Below, one piece after another: positions 2,890-13,176 of a stretch of DNA of 13,176 bases (its first letter is position 1; each line of letters begins with the position of its first letter). The position numbers and the translations under genes are program-made. Location of the stretch: NCBI GenBank assembly GCA_029240815.1, contig JARDZO010000152.1:1-13176 (forward strand). Direction: 5' to 3'. Under the pieces are notes generated by a model. It was not told where the DNA came from, did not search any database, and saw only the letters and a list, made by a program, of their open reading frames with translations. The stretch comes from Brevibacillus sp. Lineage in GTDB: Bacteria > Bacillota > Bacilli > Brevibacillales > Brevibacillaceae.

Positions 2890-3102
2890 ATGGGGCTGAA
2901 TTGGTTGCGGTATTTGAACGAAGAAGTCGGAGATGACGAAGGCATCGAGGAAGTAGAAGTCAAAATCGAATACAGAGACGGAATGAAAAAAAAATGGACT
3001 TTCGTAGGGGATAATGAACCCATTTTTGAAGACGGCGAAGATGAAGAAGACGACGAGGACGACGACGACGACGAAGATGGTTCGGAGGAAGAAGACCAGT
3101 AA
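2890..3102 (+). CDS. Small, extremely acidic hypothetical protein
   Basis: The 70-residue product is preceded by a strong ribosome binding site, AGGAGGTG at 2877-2884, with good spacing to the ATG, which argues that it is a real gene. By my count 32 of 70 residues are Asp or Glu. The N-terminal part (about 1-43) has mixed composition and may fold: it contains the alternating segment VEVKIEYRDGMKKKWTFV (22-39), suggestive of two beta strands joined by a turn. The C-terminal part (about 44-70) is almost entirely Asp/Glu, partly encoded by a GAC/GAA triplet run near 3046-3080. No signal peptide, membrane segment or known family was recognised. It is followed by its own terminator, so it is transcribed alone. 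Possible roles are binding cations or basic proteins, but none can be assigned. Confidence 0.8.
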   Translation: MGLNWLRYLNEEVGDDEGIEEVEVKIEYRDGMKKKWTFVGDNEPIFEDGEDEEDDEDDDDDEDGSEEEDQ

Positions 3103-6200: not shown

Positions 6201-6509
6201 GATCTGTTTCTGCTTTCACTGAAGGCAGGGGGCACAGGTTTGAATTTGACAGGTGCTGACACGGTGATTCTCTACGATCTCTGGTGGAATCCAGCTGTGG
6301 AGCAACAAGCGGCCGATCGAGCCCATCGCATCGGGCAAAAAAATGTCGTCCAAGTCATCCGCCTCGTCGCAGAAGGTACGGTGGAAGAAAAAATGTTTGA
6401 ACTTCAGCAGAAAAAGAAGAACCTCATTCAGGAAGTGATCCAGCCTGGCCAAGAAGCGTTGTCCAGCTTGACGGAACAGGACATCAGAGAGCTCTTGATG
6501 ATCGGTTGA
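3249..6509 (+). CDS. SWIM zinc-finger / SNF2-family DEAD-like helicase
   Basis: The 1086-residue product is a Swi2/Snf2-type ATPase, a double-stranded DNA translocase. An N-terminal SWIM zinc-finger motif CxCx9CxH is complete (Cys68, Cys70, Cys80, His82). A long middle region (about 100-600) corresponds in position to the bacterial SNF2-associated domain. The two RecA-like lobes follow: Walker A DDMGLGKT (658-665, Lys664), DEAQ box (759-762), TGTPVEN (787-793), FLLRRLKTDV, then in lobe 2 LLSLKAGGTGLNL (about 988-1000) and QQAADRAHRIGQ (1019-1030) with the arginine finger region. All core motifs are intact, so it is probably active. Bacillus subtilis has a comparable helicase, YwqA, encoded next to a SWIM protein, YwqB; here the zinc finger and motor are in one chain. 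AAAGGA eight bases before the ATG supports the start. It stands alone between two terminators. A role in DNA repair or nucleoprotein remodelling is inferred from the family. Confidence 0.93.
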   Translation: MSVQLTHRLIQQRCGKISYEKGKAYNRAGKVTFTQYNPYIPSYQATVKGNVSDQVTVEWDEDGMEASCTCPSLQSYDQDCQHIAAVLIAILELEVDGRSPVIAGSGESNRVERTDSAFEKQLTTNVLGLFSETSVKTGKTRFDTRTPLEVEIICKLVMYGYQKHMFGIELKIGSKRRYIVKKIKDFLEQIEQGMSYEFSSHFCYDPSLHCFQKEDELVLKQLIEILQNEKMYRETSHRSSIQNRDGETRTLLVPPISWGKLQESLQRAPIVTFELESGTYEGITVSEEPLPLSFSFDQGHSASYQMEIKGLEHVTVMEPYGVAVSNGKLHKLSPGTSHRISQLKSMLAASRRHEIQISQEQMEPFMVQVVPELMKVGIVSIASSVSSRLVRTQLQARLYLDRIRDRLIAGLEFQYGEIIFNPLEDTSQSRGTDLIVVRDGERERQILELMEQSAFTRTEAGYYMEDEEAEYDFLYRMVPQMEKLAKVYATSAVKMRLHTASAPPKIRVDVDERTNWLDFQFDIDGIPHAEIRGLLQSLEEKRKYYRLPNGALLPLESAEYQDIQRFMSEMGIQGKDFQGTQLRLPIVRGLAMMDGDTRGTAVTVGKSFRRLLDNVRNPDNLDFPVPESLANVLRDYQVYGYQWLKTLAHYHFGGILADDMGLGKTVQSIAFLVSVLPQIRERKQPALIVSPASLIYNWRNELKKFAPEIRAVIADGTKGERTQILKDASQVDVVITSYPLLRRDFGTYAEGSFHTLFLDEAQAFKNHTTQTAHAVKGINAGYRFALTGTPVENGLDELWSIYDAVFPGLFPARKAFHDLSREEVAKRIRPFLLRRLKTDVLRELPEKIETLQATGLLPEQKKLYVAYLAKLQQETLKHLDKETFEKNRIKILAGLTRLRQLCCHPALFVEDYAGSSAKFEQLMEILEECRNTGKRVLLFSQFTEMLGLIGRELGYEGIPFFYLDGDTPAATRVELCNRFNEGERDLFLLSLKAGGTGLNLTGADTVILYDLWWNPAVEQQAADRAHRIGQKNVVQVIRLVAEGTVEEKMFELQQKKKNLIQEVIQPGQEALSSLTEQDIRELLMIG

Positions 6510-6532
6510 GGGTGAGGAAGGATCCTAGATAG

Positions 6533-6572
6533 AAGCCTTGGTCTGTAGTTGCATACAGATCAAGGCTTTTTT
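6533..6572 (+). terminator. Strong rho-independent terminator after the helicase gene
   Basis: A 15-bp stem pairs 6533-6547 with 6554-6568, with one G-U pair and a 6-base loop, and runs into six T's (6567-6572). It lies 23 bases after the stop and separates the helicase from the cotS operon. Confidence 0.9.
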
Positions 6573-6678
6573 AATTGGCTTACCCCCATGGATATTTGTC
6601 CGTTTCCTGTTCAAAATAGAACGAATAGTTTATTAAGAATTCGTAAGGAATTTCCAATTGTAACGCGGGGGGAATGGA

Positions 6679-9312
6679 ATGGAACAGTATCTGATTACGC
6701 CGTGGGATACTCGGGTGGGTTCTGAACCGACTCCTTTGGACTGGGATATGCACGTGCCGCCAGAAGTAGATGCGATAGCGGAGCAGGTCATCCAACAATA
6801 CGACATGTCTGTTACTTCTCGCACACTGATCACTTCCAAGCCAGATAAAGGTGGAGCGATTTGGCGGATCGAGACGAATAAGGGTCCGCGCAGTCTAAAA
6901 CTTTTGCATCGCAATCCAGAGCGCAGCTTGTTCAGTGTGGGACTGCAGGAGTATGTGGTTCAGCAGGGTGCGAGGGTACCGGCACTGATCCCTGCGAAAG
7001 ACGGCAAATTATTTGTAGAGAGCGGCGGAAAGCTTTGGATCGTTACGGACTGGATTAATCTTACGCCGGCTACGAAAGTGGATTTAATAGGCGCGCAAGA
7101 GTTATGCTACGGACTTGGTGAATTCCATCGGCATTCAAAAGGGTACTTGCCCCCGTTTGGTGCCAAAAACTCTTCTCGTCTATATCGCTGGCCGAATTAC
7201 TATCAAAAGATTGCCAAGAAAATCGGTTGGATGAGAGAGATGGCCAAGGCATACCGCGATACGGTCGCAAGCGCATCGATCCTGGCGGTGGTCGATCAAT
7301 ACGAACGGCAGGCCGTGGAAGCACTGAATCGCTTGAATGCTTCAGCTTATCCGAGAATGGTTGCGATGGGGGAGCCTCACTGGGGGCTGGTGCACCAAGA
7401 TTATGGTTGGTCAAACGGACAGAATGGTCCCGGTGGGCTGTGGGTAATCGATTTGGACGGTGTATCGTACGATTTGCCATTTCGAGATTTGCGCAAGCTG
7501 ATTACGAGCACGATGGACGATATGGGTGTCTGGGATGTAACGTGGATGCGCGGCATGATCGATGCGTATCACCAGGCCAATCCTCTTGATGCCGAGTCTT
7601 ACGAGGTACTATTGATTGATATGGCAGTACCGAATGAATTTTATAAGCATTTGAAAGAAATGTTTTTCGACCCCATTACGTTTTTGAATACAGAAGCAGA
7701 TGCAATCCTGCAGCGGGTGGTTGCGACCGATCAAACAAAAGCGCAAGCATTGACAGAACTGGCTGCCGACATGGGGAAATACAAGGCGGGCGATTACGAG
7801 CAAAAAGTCGCAGCCGTGGAACCTCAGCGAGTTCCTTCCGAGAGCAGCACATGGGATCTAAAAAGCTGGGGCCTGCAACCACAAGAAAAAGCAACATCCG
7901 AGGATACTACCGTATCGAAGGAAAGAAGAACGGAGAAAATCAAAGTCCAAAAGAAGCAGTCCCAGCCTGTTGCAGCTGATCGTACACCGGCCGTGGAAGC
8001 AAGCAAGACACTTATCGATTCCGGGACGTCCGATAAAAAAACAAGTGCGGAGCAAATAGAGTCTAAATCGACTACAAATGAAGCAAAACCAGTAACAGCT
8101 GAATCTAAATCGACTACAAAAGAAGCAAAACCGGTAAAAGTTGAATCCAAAACGACTACAAATGAAGCAAAACCAGTAACAGCTGAATCTAAATCGACTA
8201 CAAAAGAAGCAAAACCGGTAAAAGTTGAATCCAAATCGACTACAAAAGAAGCAAAACCGGTAAAAGTTGAATCCAAATCGACCACAAAAGAAGCAACACC
8301 GGTAAAAGTTGTGTACAAATCGACTACAAAGAAAGCAACACCAGTAAAAGTCGAATCCAAATCGACAACAAAAGAAGTAACACCAGTAAAAGTTGAATCC
8401 AAATCGACCACAAAAGAAGCAAAACCGGTGAAAGTTGTGTCCAAATCGACTACAAAAGAAGCAACACCAGTAAAAGTCGAATCCAAATCGACAACAAAAG
8501 AAGTAACACCAGTAAAAGCTGAATCCAAATCGACAACAAAAGAAGCAAAACCGGTAAAAGTCGAATCCAAATCGACAACAAAAGAAGTAACACCAGTAAA
8601 AGCCGAATCCAAATCGACAACAAAAGAAGCAAAACCGGTAAAAGCCGAATCCAAAACGACCACAAAAGAAGCAAAATCGGTAAAAGCAGAATCCAAAACG
8701 ACAACAAAAGAAGCAAAATCGGTAAAAGCTGAATCTAAGCAAGCTTCAAGAAAGACAAAACTCGTCACGATTGATCCTCAATCGGTTAGAAAGAGCAAAT
8801 CAACTACTGGATCAACCAAAGAAGAGACGAACACTTCTTCAGAAAAAAGCGCCACAAGTGCGCGCAGGGCACCTTCCTACAATGTCATTGATCTTACCCC
8901 GTATCTTGCCAACAGACAAACCAAAAAGACCAATTCAAAAAAGAAGGTCGTCCGAAAGAAGACAGCGAGCGCGAGTACCTCTCCCGCCAAAAAAAAGGCA
9001 ACAACGATTGCGAAGGTAAAACAGCAAGCCCAAAAGAAAAAGAACGTTGCTGCTTCTATAGTCATCTCTATACAGCAGCAAAAAGCAAAAATAGCCAAAC
9101 AGAATGTTAAACAGGTGAGCAAACAGCCTGCGAAACAAGCAGCCAAATCAGTGAAACGAACAACACCTGTAGGGAATAAAACGAAAAAAGCGGCTTCGTC
9201 AAACACCAAACATTCTTACACCAAGATTCCTGCTCCCAGCAAGAAAATGAACAAACAGGCAGCGAATAAACCTAGTGCGAAAAAAGGCGTAAAGTCCAGA
9301 GGAGTGCGATGA
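6679..9312 (+). CDS. cotS: CotS-family spore coat kinase-fold protein with a long lysine-rich repeat tail
   Basis: The 877-residue product has a CotS-type (aminoglycoside-phosphotransferase-like fold) domain over about residues 1-385. The kinase catalytic residues look intact: VHQDYGWSN (His239, Asp241, Asn246) and VIDLDG (Asp258, Asp260). Bacillus subtilis CotS is a coat protein of about 350 residues, so this one is more than twice the usual length. After the domain come a charged linker (about 386-460), sixteen full copies of a 14-residue unit (consensus ESKSTTKEAKPVKV, 461-684), and a basic Lys/Ala/Thr-rich end (688-877) with histone-H1-like stretches such as AKKKAT and PAKQAAKSVK. One less charged island, APSYNVIDLTPYLANRQ, sits at 731-747. 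No signal peptide or membrane segment is visible. The purine-rich GGGGGGA at 6667-6673 precedes the ATG by five bases. It is the first gene of a two-gene operon with cotSA, 25 bases apart. The orthology to CotS is a family-level call; the kinase substrate is unknown. Confidence 0.85.
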   Translation: MEQYLITPWDTRVGSEPTPLDWDMHVPPEVDAIAEQVIQQYDMSVTSRTLITSKPDKGGAIWRIETNKGPRSLKLLHRNPERSLFSVGLQEYVVQQGARVPALIPAKDGKLFVESGGKLWIVTDWINLTPATKVDLIGAQELCYGLGEFHRHSKGYLPPFGAKNSSRLYRWPNYYQKIAKKIGWMREMAKAYRDTVASASILAVVDQYERQAVEALNRLNASAYPRMVAMGEPHWGLVHQDYGWSNGQNGPGGLWVIDLDGVSYDLPFRDLRKLITSTMDDMGVWDVTWMRGMIDAYHQANPLDAESYEVLLIDMAVPNEFYKHLKEMFFDPITFLNTEADAILQRVVATDQTKAQALTELAADMGKYKAGDYEQKVAAVEPQRVPSESSTWDLKSWGLQPQEKATSEDTTVSKERRTEKIKVQKKQSQPVAADRTPAVEASKTLIDSGTSDKKTSAEQIESKSTTNEAKPVTAESKSTTKEAKPVKVESKTTTNEAKPVTAESKSTTKEAKPVKVESKSTTKEAKPVKVESKSTTKEATPVKVVYKSTTKKATPVKVESKSTTKEVTPVKVESKSTTKEAKPVKVVSKSTTKEATPVKVESKSTTKEVTPVKAESKSTTKEAKPVKVESKSTTKEVTPVKAESKSTTKEAKPVKAESKTTTKEAKSVKAESKTTTKEAKSVKAESKQASRKTKLVTIDPQSVRKSKSTTGSTKEETNTSSEKSATSARRAPSYNVIDLTPYLANRQTKKTNSKKKVVRKKTASASTSPAKKKATTIAKVKQQAQKKKNVAASIVISIQQQKAKIAKQNVKQVSKQPAKQAAKSVKRTTPVGNKTKKAASSNTKHSYTKIPAPSKKMNKQAANKPSAKKGVKSRGVR
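8059..8739 (+). repeat. Tandem 42-bp coding repeat, 16 full units plus a 9-base remnant
   Basis: The array encodes sixteen 14-residue units (8059-8730) with consensus ESKSTTKEAKPVKV and ends in a partial ESK. All units are exactly 42 bp, so the frame is kept. Unit variants are not random. Units 1-2 match 3-4, units 7-9 (8311-8436) match 10-12 (8437-8562) including shared synonymous codons, units 11-12 nearly match 13-14, and units 15 and 16 encode identical peptides. This pattern shows growth by duplication of blocks of one to three units. Copy number is likely to vary between strains. Confidence 0.95.
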
Positions 9313-9337
9313 GCCGTACGAGGAAAGGAGAATTCGG

Positions 9338-10486
9338 ATGAAGGTAGTCATGATCTGTACAGAAAAATTGCCCGTCCCTCCAGTCCGCGGCGGCGCCATC
9401 CAGACCTATATAGCGGGAATCGTCGATTTTCTCGGTCAACATCATGACCTGACTGTATTAGGAACGACAGACCCTTCCCTTCCGCTGGATGAGAGGGTAG
9501 GCAAAGTACGGTATGTGAGGGTAGAGGGCCAGGGTGTATTCGAAACATATGCAGAACAAGTCGTTCAGTTTTTACGCACCCAATCCTACGACATTATCCA
9601 CGTATTTAACCGGCCGAGATTGGTGGCTCTCATACGGGAAGCATGTCCGAATGCACGAATCATCCTCAGTATGCACAACGATATGTTCGATCAAGCGAAA
9701 ATTGATTCACAGGAAGCGGCCAAAGCGATTGCTACGACTGACCGAATTATCACAATCAGCGATTATGTTGGGCGAGTGATTCAGTCCCTCTATCCAGATG
9801 CTGCTGGAAAACTCCGCACTATTTATTCCGGAGTAGATTTGCAGACATTTGTCCCGTGGGAAAAATCGCAGTCAGCGCGTCAGATCAGGCAAGAACTCAG
9901 GTCCATGCACAATTTAGGAAATAAACAGGTGATATTGTTTGTAGGCAGATTGACTCCGAAAAAAGGGGCAGACATCTTGGTGAGGGCGATGAATGAGCTT
10001 CACTCGCAACACTCGAATATCGCCCTCGTTCTCGTCGGCGGAGCGTGGTACGGCGTCGATAAAATCAGTGACTACGTAGCTTATGTGCGCTCTCTGGCAG
10101 ATCGTTCGCCCATCCCGGTCATTACGACTGGCTATGTTAATGCAGAACAGATTCATCAATGGTTTTGGACAGGGGACATCTTCGTTTGTCCTTCGCAATG
10201 GGAGGAGCCTTTGGCGAGGGTACACTACGAGGCGATGGCGGCAGGACTGCCATTTGTGACAACCAAGCGGGGGGGCAATGCGGAGGTCATCATTGGTGAA
10301 AATGGACTCTTGGTCGAAGAGCCCGAAAATCCGCGTGCCTTTGCGGACCAGCTAAACAAACTGCTCTCCAGCCGGGATTTACAGAAGAAGATGGGAAGTG
10401 TGGGAAGGAAGCTGGCGGAAGACCGGTTCACCTGGGATCGGGTCGCAAGAGAAGTATTAGAGGTCTGGAACAGGATATCGTTTTAA
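9338..10486 (+). CDS. cotSA: CotSA-type spore coat glycosyltransferase (GT4 family)
   Basis: The 382-residue product is a GT-B-fold retaining glycosyltransferase. The N-terminal lobe starts MKVVMICTEKLPVPPVRGGA, the Gly-rich acceptor-side loop that is nearly diagnostic of Bacillus CotSA (YtxN). The C-terminal lobe has LFVGRLTPKKGADIL and the nucleotide-sugar motif EEPLARVHYEAMAAGLPFV, giving the GT4 E-x7-E pair (Glu290, Glu298), followed by GGNAEVI. It presumably transfers a sugar from a nucleotide donor to a coat component during sporulation; donor and acceptor cannot be read from the sequence. AAAGGAG seven bases before the ATG fixes the start. It lies 25 bases after the cotS-like stop and is almost certainly co-transcribed with it. 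In B. subtilis cotSA precedes cotS, so the order here is reversed. Confidence 0.92.
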   Translation: MKVVMICTEKLPVPPVRGGAIQTYIAGIVDFLGQHHDLTVLGTTDPSLPLDERVGKVRYVRVEGQGVFETYAEQVVQFLRTQSYDIIHVFNRPRLVALIREACPNARIILSMHNDMFDQAKIDSQEAAKAIATTDRIITISDYVGRVIQSLYPDAAGKLRTIYSGVDLQTFVPWEKSQSARQIRQELRSMHNLGNKQVILFVGRLTPKKGADILVRAMNELHSQHSNIALVLVGGAWYGVDKISDYVAYVRSLADRSPIPVITTGYVNAEQIHQWFWTGDIFVCPSQWEEPLARVHYEAMAAGLPFVTTKRGGNAEVIIGENGLLVEEPENPRAFADQLNKLLSSRDLQKKMGSVGRKLAEDRFTWDRVAREVLEVWNRISF

Positions 10487-10510
10487 GACTAAATAGACGA
10501 GGAGTCGGAA

Positions 10511-10546
10511 GCCCGCTTTCCCGATTGATGAAAAGGGGAGGTGGGC
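10511..10546. repeat. Imperfect inverted repeat after cotSA
   Basis: Bases 10511-10522 (GCCCGCTTTCCC) can pair with 10535-10546 (GGGGAGGTGGGC) over 12 positions if G-U pairs are allowed, leaving a 12-base loop. No T-run follows, so it is not a classical terminator. It could protect the 3' end of the cotSA mRNA. Confidence 0.35.
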
Positions 10547-10553
10547 AAGGCTC

Positions 10554-10592
10554 AATTGGTTGTCTGGCTATACGCAGCGAGGCAATTTTTTT
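10554..10592 (+). terminator. Probable terminator of the cotS-cotSA operon
   Basis: AATTG (10554-10558) and CTG (10564-10566) pair with CAATT (10583-10587) and CAG (10575-10577) in an imperfect hairpin that ends in seven T's at 10586-10592. The stem is weak but the T-run and position fit. Confidence 0.45.
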
Positions 10593-10598
10593 GACTGG

Positions 10599-10638
10599 AA
10601 AAAGGACAAGCATCACTTAATATGAGCCAGGCTTGTCC
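10599..10638 (-). terminator. Terminator of the Pro/Val-repeat protein gene (minus strand)
   Basis: GGACAAGC at 10604-10611 and GCTTGTCC at 10631-10638 are perfect 8-base complements with a 19-base loop. Read on the minus strand, the stem is followed by TTTTT (10603-10599). It lies 73 bases after the stop codon of the minus-strand gene at 10712. Confidence 0.75.
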
Positions 10639-10711
10639 GATCCTGGTAGCGATGGGTCTTGGGCAGGGAGCGGTATAACTTGACGACCACTCCCCCGAGC
10701 CAAGAGAGGCC

Positions 10712-11347
10712 TTATCCTGATGCAAGATGGCGGATACTAGATTCTCCAATAACCGAAGTCCAATGGAGGGAAATGGTTTGTTCCACTTCCTCCTCGATTT
10801 CAGTAGGTTCCATTCCTTCAGCAGGCTGCTGCAAATTGGGAATGACGGCCACAATTCGGTTGAGTGGGATCAGGATGCTACTTGCACTCATATCGAGCGA
10901 AGCACTCGTGCGCAGCTCAATCATACCCTCCTCGACTCGAATCAGATTGCCGATTCGGTATCGACGGTTATCTGGACCCCAATCTGATTCTAGAAGCAAC
11001 TCAATGGTTTGGTTTTGTTTCATACACTTTTTCAGTTCTTTGCGGAGACCTTGCATACTGGCTTCGTCAGCGCGCTCCTCTGCCTCGACTTCCACTTGAA
11101 CAATCGGGGCAGGAATCACAATCGGCTTGGGGGCTCGGATATTCACAGATGGCGCTTCTACCTGTACGGTTGGCACAGGAGAGGATACAGAGACCAGAGG
11201 AGCAGGGGTGGTTACGTGAACCTTTGGAGCACGGACGTTGACCCGAAGTAAACGATTCAGTCTTTTTTGCAACAGACCGACTTGACGGGATATGGCTTTT
11301 GTGGATTTGATTCGGGTTCTTTTCCTAGCTGCTTTCGCTATTTTCAT
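10712..11347 (-). CDS. Hypothetical protein: basic N-terminus, Pro/Val repeat region, small C-terminal domain
   Basis: The 211-residue product was not recognised. Residues 1-35 are strongly basic (MKIAKAARKRTRIKSTK...). Residues 36-90 alternate valine and proline in a loose repeat of about 7-10 residues (VNVRAP, KVHVTTPAP, LVSVSSPVP, TVQVEAP, SVNIRAP), suggesting an extended beta or polyproline-like rod. Residues 90-112 are charged and probably helical. Residues 113-172 look like a small beta domain (RIGNLIRVEEGMIELRTS, then SILIPLNRIVAVIP), loosely similar to Sm-like barrels seen in some Bacillus spore proteins. That resemblance is weak and is inference. The tail is acidic. An upstream in-frame ATG at 11374 would add nine residues, but GGGAGGTG at 11365-11358 sits ten bases before the ATG at 11347, so I use 11347. 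It converges on the cotS operon and has its own terminator and a sigma-K-like promoter. Confidence 0.8.
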   Translation of the reverse strand: MKIAKAARKRTRIKSTKAISRQVGLLQKRLNRLLRVNVRAPKVHVTTPAPLVSVSSPVPTVQVEAPSVNIRAPKPIVIPAPIVQVEVEAEERADEASMQGLRKELKKCMKQNQTIELLLESDWGPDNRRYRIGNLIRVEEGMIELRTSASLDMSASSILIPLNRIVAVIPNLQQPAEGMEPTEIEEEVEQTISLHWTSVIGESSIRHLASG

Positions 11348-11357
11348 GAATGAAGGA

Positions 11358-11365
11358 CACCTCCC
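11358..11365 (-). promoter_or_regulatory. Ribosome binding site that decides the start at 11347
   Basis: The minus strand reads GGGAGGTG here, ten bases before the ATG at 11347. The alternative upstream ATG at 11374 would place this site inside the coding region, so the shorter protein is preferred. Confidence 0.75.
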
Positions 11366-11378
11366 ACTTGACATGGTT

Positions 11379-11406
11379 TATCATATTCAGTTCTAGAGGG
11401 TCTGTT
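11379..11406 (-). promoter_or_regulatory. Sigma-K-like promoter of the Pro/Val-repeat protein gene
   Basis: On the minus strand, AATATGATA (11387-11379) matches the sigma-K -10 CATAnnnTA except for its first base. AACA (11406-11403) lies 15 bases upstream and fits the mACm -35. A transcript starting about seven bases downstream would begin near or after the upstream ATG at 11374, consistent with translation from 11347. Confidence 0.33.
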
Positions 11407-11427
11407 GTGGACAAATACCCGGTCTAG
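11393..11427. repeat. Inverted repeat between lysE and the Pro/Val-repeat gene
   Basis: CTAGA-GGGT (11393-11401) pairs with ACCC-gg-TCTAG (11417-11427) around a 15-base loop. No T-run follows on the minus strand, so it is at best a partial terminator or 3' stabiliser for the lysE transcript. It overlaps the putative promoter of the next gene. Confidence 0.35.
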
Positions 11428-11449
11428 GAAAAATGGGGGTAGGATGCCT

Positions 11450-12073
11450 TCATTTCTCTGCGAGAGCAATCCGGATACCGATTACCGCATACAAGATCGC
11501 TTTGCCGTAATTGACAACCTTTCCGACAGAGGAGCGACCTAGTAGTTTTTGACCGAAAATTCCGGCAAAAATAGCGACGGCTGAAAAGAGAATGATGGTC
11601 TGAATCATGAATACGATTCCGAGAATCATCATTTGAAGTGGCTCATTCCCCGATCCAGGGGTGATGAACTGGGGGAGAAATGCGAGAAAGAACAACGATA
11701 CTTTAGGATTCAAGACATTCATCAAAATTCCGGTGCGATACAGTCGGAGGGCAGACTTTTTTTCTGGTGCTGCTGTGGGTAAAGGATTTGCTCCTTCTTT
11801 TATCGCTTGATAAGCCAGATAAAGGAGATAAAGAGCACCAGCGTATTTGACTAGCTGAAAGGCAAAAGCGGAGTTGTAGAGAATAGCCGTAACACCTAAT
11901 GCAGCAGCAGTCGTATGAGCGATGAGGCCAGTCGTCAACCCCATGGCGGTGGCAATGCCAGCTTTACGACCGTTTGAGATGCTCTGAGCGATGACGAAGA
12001 GAATGTCAGGTCCGGGAGCCAGAGTCAGCAAGACCGATACTGCCAAAAAAGAGAGAAGCATAGTGAGATCCAT
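11450..12073 (-). CDS. LysE/RhtB-family amino-acid exporter
   Basis: The 207-residue product is an inner-membrane exporter of the LysE/RhtB superfamily, which pump amino acids or their derivatives out of the cell. Length and layout are typical. The family signature LAPGPD is at 18-23 within the first membrane helix, a glycine-rich second helix follows (about 40-65), and the conserved MNVLNPK is at 118-124 at the start of the central helix. Two more hydrophobic helices (about 148-172 and 190-205) complete a six-helix pattern. The substrate cannot be told from the sequence. AGGAGG about eleven bases before the ATG supports the start, with slightly long spacing. It is divergent from the membrane-protein gene at 12302. 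No adjacent LysR- or Lrp-type regulator is visible. Confidence 0.9.
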   Translation of the reverse strand: MDLTMLLSFLAVSVLLTLAPGPDILFVIAQSISNGRKAGIATAMGLTTGLIAHTTAAALGVTAILYNSAFAFQLVKYAGALYLLYLAYQAIKEGANPLPTAAPEKKSALRLYRTGILMNVLNPKVSLFFLAFLPQFITPGSGNEPLQMMILGIVFMIQTIILFSAVAIFAGIFGQKLLGRSSVGKVVNYGKAILYAVIGIRIALAEK

Positions 12074-12092
12074 AAATCAATTCGCCTCCTGA

Positions 12093-12114
12093 GTCAAAAT
12101 AAAATCTATTTGAC
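12093..12114. repeat. Inverted repeat upstream of the LysE exporter gene
   Basis: GTCAAA (12093-12098) and TTTGAC (12109-12114) are perfect 6-base inverted arms with a 10-base AT-rich centre, beginning 19 bases before the exporter ATG. The geometry fits an operator in the leader or promoter. No regulator is recognised. Confidence 0.35.
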
Positions 12115-12209
12115 CCATACATTACGGGAAATCAAAAGGACGGTCTAGCGGAAAACGGAAATTTTATCGAAGTAGGAACAGAGAAAAGGAGTGGCCTTCG
12201 TGATTGGGA

Positions 12210-12225
12210 TTGGTAATAAAACCAA
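12210..12225. repeat. Short inverted repeat in the lysE/membrane-protein divergent region
   Basis: TTGGT-aataaa-ACCAA is a 5-base inverted repeat followed by GTTTTT. It resembles a small terminator but no plus-strand gene precedes it. An operator role is possible, and chance is also possible. Confidence 0.25.
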
Positions 12226-12254
12226 GTTTTTCTAAATGTAAATGGAAAATCATG

Positions 12255-12260
12255 TATAAT
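12255..12260 (+). promoter_or_regulatory. Sigma-A -10 box (TATAAT) of the membrane-protein gene
   Basis: A perfect TATAAT at 12255-12260 lies 41 bases before the ATG at 12302. No good -35 hexamer exists at 16-18 bases; TTCTAA at 12230-12235 is the nearest, at 19. Housekeeping expression is likely but possibly activator-assisted. Confidence 0.5.
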
Positions 12261-12301
12261 GGTTCAGGTAATCTCAAAAAAAGAGACATGGAGGTTTCGG
12301 C

Positions 12302-13176
12302 ATGAATCAAACGCCGCTCGCTCCCATGGGAGTAGGAAAGCTGCTGGACCGCAGCTTCGTTGTATATCGTCAGCATTTTGGTGCCTTTTTCCTCATGACC
12401 TTGATGCTGTTTGGTCCGTTTTTGCTTTTGCAGGATTTACTCATTTTTGATCTGGGGAGCATGTCTTTCTTCGTACAGGATGCGGACGGTTCAGATTTTT
12501 GGGAATCGATGGCCAGCAGGTTTGCGGCAGAAGACATACAGACGACCGACCAGATTGGATTCCTTCTCTTGTACCTGTTGGTGGTTTTGCCACTCATGTC
12601 ATTGGGTGCCTATCCGCAATTGCTGTCGGGGGCGCTTCTCCTGACCAAAGCTGCGTTAGAAGGAAAAGAACTCGGTATCAGGGATGCATTAAAGCAATCG
12701 TTTCGCCGATTCTGGCCGCTGGTAGGCGCTAGTCTTGTCTACGCGCTCGTCATTCTCGGGATCATTCTCGGGTTTATGCTCGTCTGTGCACTGTTCTTTT
12801 TCCTGTTTTCACTCGTATCCGGAGCCACGCTCAGCTCTTTGTTCGAAGGCGATAGCGAAATGGGACCCATCGTGCTCGTGATCTTTTTAGTGGTGGCCTA
12901 CGTGGTCTTTTTACTGGTGCTCATGGTGGTACCCGGCTTCTTTATGCTTCGTTGGGGGTTCTATTTGCCGTTTACACTCCTGGAAGGCGAAGGGGTAGCA
13001 CTCGGAAAAAGCTGGCGCTTGACGCAAGGGAACTTTTGGCGACTTTTCGGTCTTTACCTAGTTCTCATGGTGTTGTATTCCGTTTTGTCAGGCGGGGTTC
13101 AGGCTGTCATTACCGCATCGATGGGAACGTCCATCGTCAGTCAACTCATCATGCTCCTCGTATCTTGCCTGTTGAC
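12302..13176 (+). CDS. Polytopic membrane protein, N-terminal 291 codons (partial, runs off right edge)
   Basis: An open frame begins at ATG 12302 and continues to the edge without a stop. GGAGGT seven bases upstream is a good ribosome binding site. The protein opens MNQTPLAPMGVGKLLDRSFV, then YRQHFGAFF, a cytoplasmic lead-in followed by a hydrophobic segment (about 29-48). This lead-in is typical of multi-helix proteins of the DUF975/glycerophosphodiester-phosphodiesterase-membrane-domain type in Bacillota. Further hydrophobic segments lie at about 86-115, 139-173, 188-215 (VVPGFFMLRWGFYLPF follows) and 247-270, with LLEGEGVALGKSWRLTQGNFWRLFG between helices. The repeated pattern of a basic amphipathic stretch followed by helices suggests an internally duplicated fold. 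Function is unknown. In related genomes such genes often precede DUF4129, MoxR-ATPase and DUF58 genes, but that lies outside the window. Confidence 0.8.
   Translation, partial: MNQTPLAPMGVGKLLDRSFVVYRQHFGAFFLMTLMLFGPFLLLQDLLIFDLGSMSFFVQDADGSDFWESMASRFAAEDIQTTDQIGFLLLYLLVVLPLMSLGAYPQLLSGALLLTKAALEGKELGIRDALKQSFRRFWPLVGASLVYALVILGIILGFMLVCALFFFLFSLVSGATLSSLFEGDSEMGPIVLVIFLVVAYVVFLLVLMVVPGFFMLRWGFYLPFTLLEGEGVALGKSWRLTQGNFWRLFGLYLVLMVLYSVLSGGVQAVITASMGTSIVSQLIMLLVSCLL

Follow-up and report, generated by a model that had tools for sequence, protein, structure and literature searches.

What is a spore coat kinase doing with a long repeat tail rich in Lys, Ser and Thr, and is that tail its substrate? 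The question is raised by contig JARDZO010000152.1 of Brevibacillus sp. (assembly GCA_029240815.1), of which a stretch of 13,176 nucleotides, here called the window, was analyzed. An open frame on its forward strand (6679-9312) encodes the protein, which is 877 residues long. An earlier note had proposed that a kinase and a CotG-like acceptor were joined in this single chain. We favor another reading, to which we give a probability of roughly 0.55: the protein would be a bacterial spore kinase of the CotI (YtaA) type, with a sugar or glycan intermediate as its substrate, acting as a pair with a CotSA-like glycosyltransferase (GT) encoded just downstream. Its tail would be a disordered linker with a basic block at the end, which may anchor the kinase, possibly along with the GT, in the coat or to an acidic glycan of the spore surface; the array of 16 Ser/Thr/Lys units would be a recent lengthening of the linker. 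The family, the catalytic residues, the predicted disorder, the basic end, the variable linker and the pairing and fusion of the genes come from computation, while the sugar substrate, the location in the spore of this organism, the anchoring by charge and the acidic glycan as partner are inferred. The features concerned are as follows.

6679..7797, forward strand: CotI/CotS-type kinase domain, residues 1-373 (matches to TIGR02906 and YtaA 2q83; conserved residues)
7798..8058, forward strand: tail start and linker ahead of the array, residues 374-460 (disordered in the structure model; first part alignable among 80 near proteins)
8059..8730, forward strand: array at residues 461-684, 16 ESKSTTKEAKPVKV-like units each 14 residues long (Tandem Repeats Finder; protein units)
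8731..8871, forward strand: post-array linker, residues 685-731
8872..9309, forward strand: basic distal block, residues 732-877 (charge; alignment with near proteins)
9338..10486, forward strand: GT4 glycosyltransferase, the CotSA-like partner (PF00534, PF13439)

The kinase belongs to the CotS family of spore coat proteins, as TIGR02906 matched residues 53-360 with 278 bits (E 7.9e-83), exceeding the curated threshold (172.7 bits). The B. subtilis YtaA/CotI structure (2q83) matched residues 30-338 (E 3.3e-54). The score for the CotI equivalog NF053880 was 235.4 bits, below its curated cut-off of 550, which places the protein outside that equivalog. A Pfam scan of the 877 residues returned no family at E up to 1; the PF08757 domain was absent and the protein was not classed as a CotH kinase. 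His239, Asp241, Asn246, Asp258 and Asp260, described in the earlier note as intact, were all present. With H150 and D270, and with Q240, R269, R272 and K273 in the pocket, they give the protein a CotI-like pocket, the YtaA reference residues being H148, H237, D239, N244, D257/DxD and D269, with Q238, R268, R271 and K272 in the pocket (PMC2860764, available text). Related loci were the best 80 of 208 confirmed, in one-per-species genomes; they were found by query-derived patterns and are thus close relatives. These 11 catalytic, structural or pocket residues were identical in the query and in 79/79 aligned loci (L005 was left out of the kinase alignment). The residues of a putatively active bacterial spore kinase with a CotI-like pocket are kept. 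In fold searches, the fold and pocket residues matched small-molecule and sugar kinases, with B. subtilis YtaA/CotI first; CotH chains were not among the best 50 matches listed per search, which excludes nothing.

The long Lys-rich repeat tail reported earlier in the same chain was confirmed, with 16 in-frame units at residues 461-684. Tandem Repeats Finder gave a period of 42 at 8065-8735 (16.0 copies, 88% matches, 0% indels, score 943), and the unit consensus has an STT core, Glu and Pro and no Arg. Between units, non-synonymous differences were rarer than synonymous ones per site (pN 0.09, pS 0.25), a pattern as in translated sequence. Two long minus-strand frames (7824-8768 and 7858-8742) were rejected as genes, being mirrors of the array. 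The structure model predicted the tail to be disordered; residues 386-877 are composed of 21.7% K, 13.4% S and 14.6% T. The distal block carries a net charge of +0.27 per residue and contains NVIDLTPYL (735-743) and HSYTKIPAPSKKMN...KKGVK (845-877). The terminal 44 residues recurred in kinase frames of 5/7 genomes, weakly in some. Tested as a possible motif shared with other coat proteins, they gave seven matches at E <0.1, all in frames of this kinase family and one of them the remainder of a broken kinase copy; three weaker matches had E 0.4-2.2.

Such tails are general among the relatives. Their frequency was counted from the loci; the set of near proteins admitted only lengths 0.55-1.75 times that of the query. 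Usable tails were found at 72 of the 80 loci, after six fused loci (L047 also cut off), the open-ended L023 and the broken L005 were left out. The tail had at least 100 residues in 65, at least 90 in 66 and at most 30 in five. In the 66 long tails the median share of Lys plus Arg was 23.6%, against 10.3% in the kinase body, and that of Ser plus Thr was 13.7% (range 8.7-26.7%), against 9.7%; the latter fell under 13% in 29 tails. Net charge exceeded +0.05 per residue in 62/66, and the distal half was positive in all 66, while the proximal half was often acidic. The tail of L018 is Arg-rich and Lys-poor (15% R, 3% K). Across 22 Brevibacillus-group genomes (of 23 with a match, G009 was left out), the coefficient of variation was 0.22 for Ser plus Thr versus 0.09 for Lys plus Arg. 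Judged from these sequences, the positive charge of the tail is better kept than its Ser/Thr.

The array is of a different standing. At residues 465-618, occupancy was <10% among the 80 near proteins; the two ends of the tail could be aligned, and the distal block had an occupancy of at least 90% over most of its length (80 of 85 proteins were aligned; P0016, P0027, P0078, P0079 and P0080 were left out). P0002, with 97% identity over residues 1-400, has about one unit and P0003 has several. A search with residues 440-877 found P0001 and three near relatives, two of them named B. choshinensis, among the 7986 candidates that shared most words and were scored. Two kinase-GT copies are present in G026, the closest whole genome searched (93% in the kinase). 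One lacks the STT array; the paralogue carries different linker repeats (AEESAPVVY and a longer unit) and a nearly identical C-terminus. Because the closest proteins have one to few units and the paralogue has unrelated repeats at this place, the array appears to be a local, recent lengthening, and the linker a site where unrelated repeats grow. A repeat array alone is ordinary, and a spacer seems a better description of the repeats than a built-in kinase target. Between the window and G026 (L094), pN/pS was 0.44 in both the linker and the distal block and 0.06 in the kinase.

The G026 paralogue, with its linker repeats of another kind, is the second kinase-GT pair of that genome, at L093 (2842-7171). 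A further paralogue, at L012 (5944-9486) and L095, has long Glu-rich acidic repeats (EEEAVEFDIALPEVVAF-like) followed by a basic end, and at L012 it lacks a GT neighbour; P0027 and P0078-P0080 were grouped with it. B. reuszeri NIT02 has both this paralogue and the other kinase copy. In that strain, the main kinase copy (L005, L087, L096) is broken by an in-frame stop codon following residue 198, which is either an error or a real loss.

These comparisons bear on the model of the earlier note, in which the repeat tail receives phosphate on Ser/Thr from its own kinase domain and then assembles like CotG or CotB. Ser/Thr adjoining Lys/Arg were indeed above chance in the window (73 vs 58.3 in shuffles, sd 5.7), but not in relatives generally (median z 0.49 in the 66 tails; >2 in six, <-2 in three). 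Moreover, Ser/Thr are not kept in other tails, the array is nearly absent from near relatives, the paralogue carries other repeats, and the closest fold matches are to small-molecule kinases. According to PMC2860764 (in the part available), the conserved pocket is basic; it would fit a Lys-rich peptide poorly. Nor does the array consist of the Ser/Lys/Arg-rich direct repeats of a CotG/CotB-type acceptor. The earlier reading was thus right as to the CotS-family kinase and the repeat tail; the joining of enzyme and acceptor found no support, with tails of at least 90 residues in 66/72 loci and a variable Ser/Thr share, and a kinase-substrate fusion as a special event was rejected, since tails are general. 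Phosphorylation of the tail by the kinase is unlikely; we put it no lower because peptide-acting enzymes share the kinase fold.

The tail can be explained without a CotH partner. PF08757 matches were detected in 7/17 genomes reached from the loci and in 16/26 genomes of the genus of G001, although frames of 580-1051 residues make up many of these matches and may represent proteins other than the spore kinase. No PF08757 match was found in G026, a further point against the model of the earlier note. The median Ser plus Thr share of the tail was 0.22 in 16 genomes with CotH versus 0.18 in six without (p 0.37).

The GT gene begins 25 bases downstream of the kinase frame. Among the 80 loci, a GT homologue lay directly downstream in 71, was fused in frame in six and stood about 2.5 kb away in one; it was not found at L012, nor at L023, where the contig ends. 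The kinase-GT4 fusions are L030, L041, L049, L058 and L077, plus L047 (cut off). Five of the fused proteins are complete. They come from Desulfosporosinus and Peptococcaceae records and could be aligned through both domains, and each of them matches the CotS and GT models. A structure model of the fusion (five sequences) had a mean predicted local distance difference test score (pLDDT) of 44.5 and a predicted template modelling score of 0.30 and was not used. It was already known that CotI/CotS genes are linked to CotSA and to uronate-type genes, and that CotS depends on CotSA (available portions of PMC2860764). The words "tail", "fused" and "fusion" are absent from the text of that paper as available, and no literature on the tail or the kinase-GT fusion was found in titles and abstract starts, most subscription journals lying outside the search. 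A UDP-glucose-dehydrogenase-like gene was present in 45/80 loci and an epimerase-like gene in 47/80; all six fused loci have both, located upstream. In view of the fusion, it is more likely that kinase and GT share a task related to sugars; the fusion is also the most useful find of the analysis: in-frame fusions are single proteins suited to testing the substrate question, and the basic tail is an easy deletion target.

At L056 (7228-9302), two genes, one GT4-like, separate a tailless kinase from the GT. At L059, a 1562-residue frame with GSVDGSKLASGAV-like repeats (8374-13062, minus strand) adjoins a tailless kinase and GT, and the locus carries GDP-mannose-type sugar genes. A megablast search of the GT against phages gave no match.

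Several observations weigh against a glycan-directed kinase anchored by its tail. The kinase has no known substrate, and no member of the family had been assayed when it was described (PMC2860764, part of the text). In the model, the loop beside the catalytic Asp (243-255) has a pLDDT <50, and the active-site geometry was not confirmed. The kinase is intact in the five of 72 loci with tails of at most 30 residues, so the anchor would not be essential everywhere. The dehydrogenase gene was found in 0/14 Brevibacillus-type loci (L001-L014) when the locus DNA was examined and was not among the seven main window frames scanned. Neither was it associated with the tail, being present in 34/66 long-tailed and 5/6 short-tailed loci.

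Cross-linking of coat proteins is known from B. subtilis, and the protein might be mainly structural, with a Lys/Gln tail that is packed into the coat or cross-linked there, and with kinase activity of little importance. The tail is Lys-rich, with Gln, and the loss of activity in several spore kinases suggests a non-catalytic role (PMC2860764, as far as available). The catalytic residues are kept in 79/79 loci, however, pN/pS is far lower in the kinase than in the tail (0.06 vs 0.44), and Arg-rich, Lys-poor tails such as that of L018 exist; we regard this explanation as improbable. An extended proposal seems equally improbable: kinase and CotSA-type GT would form one enzymatic unit for the synthesis and phosphorylation of a surface glycan, joined covalently in Desulfosporosinus-type bacteria and held by the basic tail elsewhere, with the disordered tail as acceptor or scaffold; if so, the lengthening of the STT array in the window would mean additional modification sites. 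Least probable is a Ser/Thr-rich tail glycosylated by the neighbouring GT, the kinase phosphorylating the added sugar: the two enzymes are paired and sometimes fused and the tail is disordered and Ser/Thr-rich, but many tails are low in Ser/Thr (<13% in 29/66) and the fused proteins have only a short linker.

Other features of the window were noted. Upstream of the kinase (6591-6639), a block with TATTTGTCCGTTTC and GAATA..TTA..AAGAA is kept in 7/7 aligned Brevibacillus-group sequences. A sigma-70-like promoter scan found 0 sites in 6480-11400. The sigma-K -10 pattern, which we take to be CATANNNTA, occurred five times in the window, a number reached by 23/200 shuffles, and not between 6510 and 6678. 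A 220-residue protein with V/P/A-rich repeats and no assigned family (10712-11374, minus strand) is encoded close to the GT at most Brevibacillus-type loci, and a 70-residue short frame (2890-3102, forward strand) has an Asp/Glu run at its end. PF27663 labels attached to near proteins did not recur when the window frames were scanned against Pfam.

Among known systems, the CotS-family proteins of Brevibacillus and Paenibacillus have the kinase, the basic-ended tail and the downstream GT as in the window, and differ in the number and kind of linker repeats. YtaA/CotI of B. subtilis lacks a long tail in the solved 346-residue chain (2q83), unlike the window protein. The fused kinase-GT proteins share both domains and their order but form one chain, with no long basic tail between the domains. 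CotH with CotB/CotG of B. subtilis likewise combines a coat kinase with a disordered repeat region containing Lys and Ser; there, kinase and acceptor are separate proteins, whereas in the window kinase and repeats are in one chain. The CotG repeats are of 5-7 residues and rich in Ser, Lys and Arg (PMC7821199, available part), in contrast to the 14-residue units with STT, Glu and Pro in the window.
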